From the NCBI GenBank assembly GCA_017937685.1, contig JAGBDD010000044.1, positions 1 through 33,512 of the forward strand: a stretch of DNA of 33,512 nucleotides, in the 5' to 3' direction. Position 1 is the stretch's first letter. Each line of letters begins with the position of its first letter. This document shows, piece after piece, positions 27,272-29,300 of this stretch. Source of the DNA: Thermoguttaceae bacterium (GTDB lineage Bacteria; Planctomycetota; Planctomycetia; Pirellulales; Thermoguttaceae). Below the pieces are notes generated by a model that saw only the letters and a list, made by a program, of their open reading frames with translations, was not told the DNA's origin and made no database searches. Made by a program: the position numbers and the translations under genes.

Positions 27272-27290
27272 AGTCGAGCGAATCGAACGA

Positions 27291-27333
27291 ACGCCGAAAT
27301 TTTAAACGAAGATTGAAATTTCGGCGTTTTTTT
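27291..27333 (+). terminator. Intrinsic terminator of the nucleotide-sugar dehydrogenase gene
   Basis: A perfect 12-bp stem (ACGCCGAAATTT 27291-27302 with AAATTTCGGCGT 27316-27327), a 13-nt loop and seven Ts (27327-27333), 19 bp after the stop codon. Confidence 0.85.
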
Positions 27334-27344
27334 GTTTTAACGGC

Positions 27345-27373
27345 TTGCCAAGCGCTTGCGTCGACGGTAAAAT
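27345..27373 (+). promoter_or_regulatory. Promoter for the SUMF1-domain gene
   Basis: TTGCCA at 27345-27350, a 17-bp spacer and TAAAAT at 27368-27373. The leader to the SD-led ATG at 27446 is about 66 nt. Confidence 0.7.
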
Positions 27374-27445
27374 TAACGACGTCGAAATATATTTTTAGCG
27401 CGGCTACCGACGCCGCGGGTAAAATTTAAGGAAAGAATCTTGAAA

Positions 27446-27550
27446 ATGAAAGAACGCAAAGCGTATGCGTCGGGGTTGCGCGGGCTCGTCGGAGCGGCTC
27501 GCGAGGCTTGCGACGTTAAAGTTGGCAAAATGGGGGGGGGGGCAATTTGA
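27446..27550 (+). other. SD-led upstream reading frame that runs into the poly-G tract
   Basis: ATG at 27446 has AAGGAAAG (27428-27435) at good spacing and lies below a good promoter. It reads MKERKAYASGLRGLVGAAR, then EACDVKVGKM, enters the G run and stops at TGA 27548-27550. It is in the -1 frame relative to the SUMF1-domain frame. With one G fewer, this start would read through into the large protein (527 residues). Confidence 0.65.
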
Positions 27551-29030
27551 AACGTTGAGCCCCAAACTCGAAACGACGCTCGATTCGCTGAAAGTCAAGT
27601 CGACGTTTAGCCGTTTGCGCGCGGCGGTCGACGATCTGGACGATTTTTGGCGCTCTCTTGAAAATTTTAGCGATCTTTGGAATTTTAACGCCGATTTCCA
27701 AAAAAGCCGACGGCTCCTCGCGAAAGCGATCAAATCGGGCGCCGTCGTCGAGGAAAACGTCGCGGCGCAGATTGAGGAAACGTTGGCGCGACTTCGCGGC
27801 GGCGGAACGAATAATTCGCAAATTTTCGCCGATTTTGATTTTGCGCTTCTCCGTTTCGCGCAAGGACAGTTCGAAAGCGGTTTCGCTCGGTTGGAACGAA
27901 TCGCTCGACTCGCGCCGAATGAAGACGAAAATTTTTGGGCGGCGACCCGAGCGAAGTTGGTCGTCGGCGATTTTCTCGATTTGACGAAAGGCGCCGGACG
28001 CAAACCGTTTTTCGACGAACTCGACGAGAAAAAAGCCGAGTTTTTGCGTTTGCTTGGCGCCGGAACGCTCGACAAGACCGAAACGGCGCGAGCGGCGTTG
28101 GCGTTGCGCGCGCTCGGCGAGTTCGACGTCGATTTCCCAACGGCGCTGCGCGATTGGAACGAAGCGACGGACGGTTGGAGCGCGCCGGTCGATTGCGACG
28201 CGACGTTCCGACGACTTTGCGGCGACGCGCAACGCGTTCGCGACGAACCGGCGTCTTGGACGAACGCGCTCGGAATTTGGTTCCTGCGCGTTCGTCCCGG
28301 CGCCTTTTGGATGGGAAGTCCCGCGACGGAACGAGGGCGCGAAAACGACGAAACGCAACGTAAAACGTTGATAACGCGAAGTTTTTATCTTGCCGCGTTT
28401 CCGACGACGCAGGGCGAATGGCGGGCGGCGACCGGGAAAAGTCCGAGCTTCTTTCACGGCGGAGCGCGGCTTCCCGTCGAGTCGGTTTCGCGCGCCGACG
28501 TCGGGCGTTTTTTGGAAATCTTGAACTCCGGGCTCTACCGCGAGAACCTTAGGGCCGCGTTGGGGGACGATTGGCGGTACGATCTGCCGACCGAGGCGCA
28601 ATGGGAACTCGCCTGTCGCGCCGGGTCGACGGCGGCGTTTTCCGGAAAACGTTCGCTGACGCTCGCCGACGCGAATTTCGACGGAACGGCGCCGACGTCG
28701 GGACGGTTTCGACGTTGGTTCGGCGAGTACGGACGACCGAGCGAAGCGGAGACGGGCGAGACGAAAACGGTCGGTTCGTATCCGCCGAACGCGCTCGGGT
28801 TTTACGATATGCGCGGGAACGTTTGGGAATGGGTTCGCGACCAGTACGGCGTTTACGACCAAGGAACGGTCGTCGATCCGAAGGGCCCGAGCCTTTCGAC
28901 GACTTACGTTTGCCGAGGCGGAAGTTGGCGTTCGCCGGCGGAACGCTGTCGTTCGGCGAGTCGGTTGGCGGCTCCGGAAGATTACCGCGCTTCCGACGTC
29001 GGGTTTCGGCTCGCGATCGTCGCCGATTGA
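27465..29030 (+). CDS. SUMF1/formylglycine-generating-enzyme-domain protein, N-terminus interrupted at an 11-G tract
   Basis: The uninterrupted frame gives 521 residues, but its ATG at 27465 lacks an SD, and its first ~23 residues are a shifted reading of the SD-led frame from 27446. The genuine start is probably 27446 with a frameshift at the G run 27532-27542. Residues ~30-260 are helical with no known domain. The C-terminal SUMF1 (FGE-sulfatase) fold runs ~265-520: GAFWMGSPATERGRENDE, FPTTQGEWRAATG, LPTEAQWELACRAG, GFYDMRGNVWEWVRDQYG, RGGSWRSPAERCRSASR and SDVGFRLA. In true FGE the last block has two Cys (RGGSxxC....C); here the first position is Ser and only the second Cys remains, so formylglycine formation is unlikely. 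No sulfatase gene is nearby. The role is unknown; a binding or C-type-lectin-like function is possible. Confidence 0.8.
   Translation: MRRGCAGSSERLARLATLKLAKWGGGQFETLSPKLETTLDSLKVKSTFSRLRAAVDDLDDFWRSLENFSDLWNFNADFQKSRRLLAKAIKSGAVVEENVAAQIEETLARLRGGGTNNSQIFADFDFALLRFAQGQFESGFARLERIARLAPNEDENFWAATRAKLVVGDFLDLTKGAGRKPFFDELDEKKAEFLRLLGAGTLDKTETARAALALRALGEFDVDFPTALRDWNEATDGWSAPVDCDATFRRLCGDAQRVRDEPASWTNALGIWFLRVRPGAFWMGSPATERGRENDETQRKTLITRSFYLAAFPTTQGEWRAATGKSPSFFHGGARLPVESVSRADVGRFLEILNSGLYRENLRAALGDDWRYDLPTEAQWELACRAGSTAAFSGKRSLTLADANFDGTAPTSGRFRRWFGEYGRPSEAETGETKTVGSYPPNALGFYDMRGNVWEWVRDQYGVYDQGTVVDPKGPSLSTTYVCRGGSWRSPAERCRSASRLAAPEDYRASDVGFRLAIVAD
27532..27542 (+). repeat. Homopolymeric G tract, 11 bases
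   Basis: Eleven consecutive Gs, the longest single-base G run I saw in the window (others reach six). It sits 86 bp inside a likely coding frame and separates the translation signals from the main reading frame. Confidence 0.95.
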
Positions 29031-29105: not shown

Positions 29106-29200
29106 GTCGCGGAACCGCCGACTTGGGCGCGAAAAACGGCGTCGGAAGCGGCGGTTTGGAGCGTTTGGACGGTTTGCGCAACCTCAATGGTTAGAAGTTG

Positions 29201-29300
29201 GGCGATTTGCGCAAAACGCGTTACTTCAAGCGCGGAAGACCGTCGGCGTCGGCGATTTGGGCAAAACGCGTTACTTCAAGCGCGGCAAACCGTCTGCGTC
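29201..29300. repeat. 50-bp tandem duplication of the GH43-like gene 3' end
   Basis: 29201-29250 and 29251-29300 match at 46 of 50 positions. The right copy holds the last 30 coding bases of the minus-strand gene plus 20 bp of its 3' flank. The left copy is an extra 3' end. On the minus strand both copies encode DADGLPRLK and a stop; the coding differences (GCA/GCC, TTG/CTT) are synonymous. Confidence 0.9.

Follow-up and report, generated by a model that had tools for sequence, protein, structure and literature searches.

A poly-G tract in a SUMF1-like gene of Thermoguttaceae as a likely phase-variation switch

The window analysed here, a stretch of 33,512 nucleotides from a gut planctomycete of the Thermoguttaceae, contains a gene for a SUMF1-like protein that is interrupted near its 5' end by a run of eleven Gs, the start codon lying in one reading frame and the body of the gene in another. 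Is such a gene broken, misread by the assembly, recoded during its expression, or switched on and off by changes in the length of the tract? The original prediction was that 11 Gs may leave the gene OFF and 10 or 13 turn it ON, or that slippage may rescue it; a miscount of the homopolymer was considered as the main alternative.

Reading frames, expression signals and encoded protein

Direct reading of the forward strand bears out the predicted arrangement. The tract occupies positions 27532-27542; the upstream frame, which starts at ATG 27446 and spans 34 codons (27446-27550), stops at the TGA of 27548-27550, and the main frame following the tract (27543-29030, 495 codons plus stop) is +1 relative to it, that is, one base out of register with the ATG, and has its stop at 29030. 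Removal of one G produces a single ORF of 527 codons, as had been proposed. This tract is the only run of at least eight Gs in the window, and run-length statistics place so long a homopolymer inside a coding region beyond chance, thus ruling out a chance origin. Termination-reinitiation at TTG 27547, which overlaps the TGA, was also considered and ruled out, for this TTG lies outside the main frame.

A terminator-like hairpin (27289-27329, forward strand) belongs to the upstream gene, which encodes a UDP-sugar dehydrogenase (PF03721/PF00984/PF03720), and the SUMF1-like gene is therefore probably transcribed alone. The predicted promoter was found on the same strand at 27345-27373 as a sigma-70-like pattern match, TTGCCA-17-TAAAAT (one match vs. 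a mean of 0.1 in shuffles), and it is conserved in the ortholog described below (L021), which has the hexamers TTGTCA/TACAAT and an identical 17-nt spacer. It is followed by the Shine-Dalgarno-like sequence AAGGAAAG (27428-27435, forward strand), which is kept in L021 as AAGGAAAA; the spacing from AAGGA to ATG 27446 is ~13 nt. TTG 27440, in frame with this ATG, has a better spacing but is replaced by CTC in the ortholog. Downstream of the gene, positions 29190-29300 contain a short imperfect direct repeat (GGCGATTTG.GCAAAACGCGTTACTTCAAGCGCGG).

The C-terminal 245 residues of the protein match the FGE-sulfatase (SUMF1-like) domain PF03781 (28284-29015, forward strand; E = 5.5e-36), for which PDB relatives were found. 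This C-terminal domain is common to FGE-sulfatase/SUMF1 proteins, whereas the ~260 N-terminal residues present here have few relatives. True formylglycine-generating enzymes (FGE) contain two catalytic cysteines, C336 and C341 in the human protein. When the motif GGSWRSPAERC of the window protein is read in ungapped alignment against GGSYM[C/S]HRSYC, the second cysteine is kept and the first is serine; the PDB chain in this comparison carries a mutation of its own at the position of the first Cys. The protein does not, therefore, carry both of the cysteines that define a true FGE, and the serine at the first position leaves FGE catalysis unsupported. Defence-system models gave no match with the protein.

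The ortholog of a second species

A Thermoguttaceae MAG from goat rectum (contig G011:C88) contains an ortholog, L021, with ~90% protein identity and the same upstream neighbour gene. Its tract also has exactly 11 Gs, which likewise leave the gene out of frame, and the sequences flanking the tract are 89% identical between the two genes. The original prediction asked whether the N-terminus of homologs continues as MKERKAYASG...GGGQFETL; that of the relative reads MKERNAYASG...KMGGG and then meets the same 11-G break. Between ATG and tract the two genes differ at seven sites, all of which are third codon positions of the 27446 frame, a result expected by chance with a probability of ~(1/3)^7 = 0.0005, and hence the N-terminus beginning at ATG 27446 is truly coding. 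Use of the MRRGCAG frame by homologs, the case that would have contradicted the prediction, does not fit the ortholog, since all seven differences would then be second-position changes.

Downstream of the tract, the comparison with L021 gives dN 0.047 and dS 0.170 (dN/dS ~0.28), the values for the FGE part of the gene being 0.027 and 0.157, respectively, and the gene body is free of stops in both species. The third-position changes upstream, together with the low dN/dS downstream, indicate that in each of the two species selection acts on both parts as protein, though in different frames. The length of the tract decides whether ATG 27446 is in frame with the gene body. Because the break is shared with a second species and has selection on both of its sides, a miscount in a single assembly or the decay of the gene is unlikely. 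Tract length did not differ between the two alleles (11 in both), a weak test given that only two species were found, and no ON allele was seen, for 11 Gs correspond to OFF. For the first ~70 residues of the protein, the search among relatives gave no homolog other than that of G011.

Poly-G tracts across the lineage and their interpretation

Pattern searches in the genome containing the window (4.1 Mb) recovered 26 G-runs of at least 9 and 12 of at least 11; the expected number of G/C runs of at least 11 is ~0.2, as extrapolated from the run-length decay in 80 kb, along which counts drop ~5-fold per added base. Nine of the 17 runs of at least 10 lie in the leaders of prepilin-like genes of the DUF1559 pseudopilin family, which is large in planctomycetes. 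Read along the gene, seven of these nine tracts are poly-G and two are poly-C, so that either orientation occurs. The two scanned proteins, L146 and L243, combine the PF07963 N_methyl motif with PF07596 (SBP_bac_10) and are thus DUF1559 pseudopilins; the remaining prepilin-like genes of this genome have the GFTLVELLVVIAIIGIL start in common with them. Among genus mates, pseudopilin leaders contain 12 of the 17 runs of at least 10 in G011, 10 of 13 in G009 and 7 of 8 in G017; long tracts are few or absent in many other members of the genus, and the system is therefore patchy.

We then called a gene ON or OFF according to whether its SD-linked ATG is in or out of frame across the tract. Seven of the nine tract-bearing pseudopilins in the genome of the window are in frame and two are out (L126/L151 and L138), and those of G011 are similarly mixed. 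Orthologous tracts with flanks that are 92-96% identical differ in length in the pairs L138/L205 (11/12), L206/L214 (13/12), L218/L222 (11/12) and L225/L219 (13/11), and so do those of L126/L172 (11/13, flanks 85% identical); several other orthologous pairs, including that of the window gene (11/11), have tracts of equal length. G028, from a sister genus, has ~33 closely similar pseudopilin leaders with 7-13 Gs, and those with a clear SD-linked ATG comprise 7 ON and 23 OFF; the commonest length is 11, which in most cases shifts the frame by one base just as in the window gene. The G028 paralogs L279-L318, mostly OFF, look like a repertoire of which few members are expressed at once. Of note, the contigs G009:C6, G010:C172, G019:C565 and G011:C120 start no more than ~50 bases from a pilin tract, which looks as though repeats or heterogeneous tract lengths had interrupted the assembly there.

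Given the break in the ortholog, the seven third-position changes and the mixed frames and lengths of equivalent tracts, a miscount is unlikely and phase variation explains the data best. We consider it likely that the G-run at 27532-27542 is a phase-variation (contingency) tract belonging to a lineage-wide poly-G set that concerns mainly DUF1559 pseudopilins. By mechanism, the SUMF1-like gene is a probable contingency gene, and changes in G-count very probably serve this lineage of bacteria to switch surface genes ON and OFF. Slipped-strand mispairing in replication would alter the length of the tract; a tract of 10 or 13 Gs would place ATG 27446 in frame with the SUMF1-like protein (527 aa for 10 Gs) and so turn the gene ON, whereas with 11 or 12 Gs the ribosome would leave the frame, the full protein would not be made and the gene would be OFF. 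With its 11 Gs, the assembled allele is predicted to be OFF. Such switching would be reversible, would alter the level of the protein and may be of benefit in host colonisation. The proposal of a phase-variable gene, OFF with 11 Gs but ON with 10 or 13, thus gains support from the ortholog, the substitutions and the tract set, all of them comparisons of sequences; the miscount that had been its main alternative becomes unlikely in view of the same 11-G break in a second species and the variable equivalent tracts elsewhere.

The explanation that competes best with phase variation, albeit an unlikely one, is programmed recoding, whereby a gene of constant sequence would yield full-length protein in a fixed proportion, either because RNA polymerase slips on G11 or because the ribosome shifts by +1 there. 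Exactly 11 Gs between flanks of 89% identity in the two species would fit this explanation, as would the predominance in G028 of the same length, mostly with the same one-base offset; yet orthologous and paralogous tracts do vary in length, in-frame alleles with 12 or 10 Gs are common, and the transcriptional slippage sites known in bacteria are mostly runs of A or T (PMC3711429). Even less probable is a miscount of a true tract of 10 Gs in a gene that is simply intact. Homopolymers are error-prone, several contigs break at such tracts and some G028 contigs end in runs of 55-74 Gs, a plain assembly artefact that we set aside, but the assembly of a different species gives the same 11, and many other tracts of the window's genome are in frame, so that there is no uniform one-base bias; moreover, a 10-G tract would still be a slippage-prone contingency site. 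Very improbable, finally, is either an alternative main-frame start (at ATG 27465 or further downstream, a nearby main-frame ATG being present also in the ortholog) or a decaying gene with an irrelevant tract, because ATG 27465 is without SD, the seven changes would all be in codon position 2 of its frame, and the gene body shows purifying selection and is uninterrupted by stops in the two species.

A large set of poly-G contingency genes centred on DUF1559 pseudopilins would imply that uncultured gut Planctomycetota diversify their surface within the host and are exposed to strong pressure from immunity or phages. Metagenomes already at hand should then contain natural ON variants side by side with OFF ones, a direct handle on the roles of SUMF1-like proteins and DUF1559 pseudopilins.

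Related systems, other tract-bearing genes and the recurrent flank

Most of what is known of poly-G contingency genes comes from a small number of pathogens and commensals living with a host. In those of Neisseria, notably pilC, a tract near the 5' coding end toggles the frame of the start codon. The present case resembles Neisseria in having a 5' poly-G tract that sets the start frame, in many genes per genome and with surface or pilus-related genes included; it differs in the phylum, in its main targets, namely DUF1559 pseudopilins and here a SUMF1-like protein, in the flank TGTTAAA(A/C)T that recurs across genes, and in that switching is deduced from sequence. The Neisseria phasome is the subject of PMC5953494 and PMC5084427. 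Type IIG R-M genes of the Campylobacter type are phase-variable, too, with poly-G tracts. Like them, an MmeI-type type IIG R-M gene of G009 has a G10 between its methylase and target-recognition domains; unlike them, it belongs to a relative and not to the window, and its tract sits in a 17-residue segment that is missing from seven homologs, within a loop somewhat variable in length anyway. Our search of the literature found nothing relevant on phase variation in Planctomycetota, which is weak evidence of absence because subscription papers and preprints were outside the search; the mechanism is thus known from Neisseria, Campylobacter and others, and the Planctomycetota case is apparently unreported in the searchable literature.

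Another gene with a tract (G11) encodes a polysaccharide pyruvyl transferase of G028. By eye only, tracts were also seen in a GT2-like glycosyltransferase and signal-peptide proteins of G028, an acyltransferase-like gene of G005 and a gene for a small membrane protein of G011. R-M and surface-glycan genes are among the classes expected of contingency genes. Two 10-11 G/C runs, at position 2816 of L127 (G strand) and position 2957 of L137, lie just before a possible start codon and outside any frame, a position from which transcription or translation might be adjusted.

The flank TGTTAAA(A/C)T often precedes the tract; it is translated in more than one frame (NVKMGGG, MLKWGGG), occurs also in reverse (PPPHFNKG) and is not confined to pilins. 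It recurs beside the G-run in L287 (G028:C216), L240 (G009:C522), L130 and L142 (G000), that is, in unrelated genes and different frames, and is reversed in two pseudopilin genes, as if it were conserved as DNA and not as protein. Two frames of the core contain a start, and the remaining one a stop (TAA). Six of the 33 non-pilin tracts listed have this core, and three of the six (L328, L340 and L342) are pilin leaders, missed by the pattern because they are cut at a contig end or diverged; the true non-pilin tracts with the core are thus three (L238, L240 and L338) vs. ~0.008 expected. The flank of the window tract, GTTAAAGTTGGCAAAAT (27515-27531, forward strand), resembles those of pseudopilin leaders such as TTTGGTAAAAT of L146, and constitutes a looser version of the core that is closest to this leader (TTTGGTAAAATG12CAA).

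We tentatively raise the possibility, which we regard as rather doubtful, that (A)TGTTAAA(A/C)T-G(n) is a mobile phase-variation module recruiting new genes, with a looser copy in the SUMF1-like gene. Such an element would have been inserted, in either orientation, into pseudopilin leaders, the MmeI-type R-M gene and the pyruvyl transferase gene. Descent from pilin leaders or mutational bias could also be the source of the recurrent flank. Related intergenic tracts of 12 and 8 Gs are found in L238 (G009:C99) and L312 (G017:C93), respectively, with the core TTAAAAT and similar downstream sequence; in G009 the intergenic tract lies upstream of a pseudopilin gene and is perhaps the relic of a leader.
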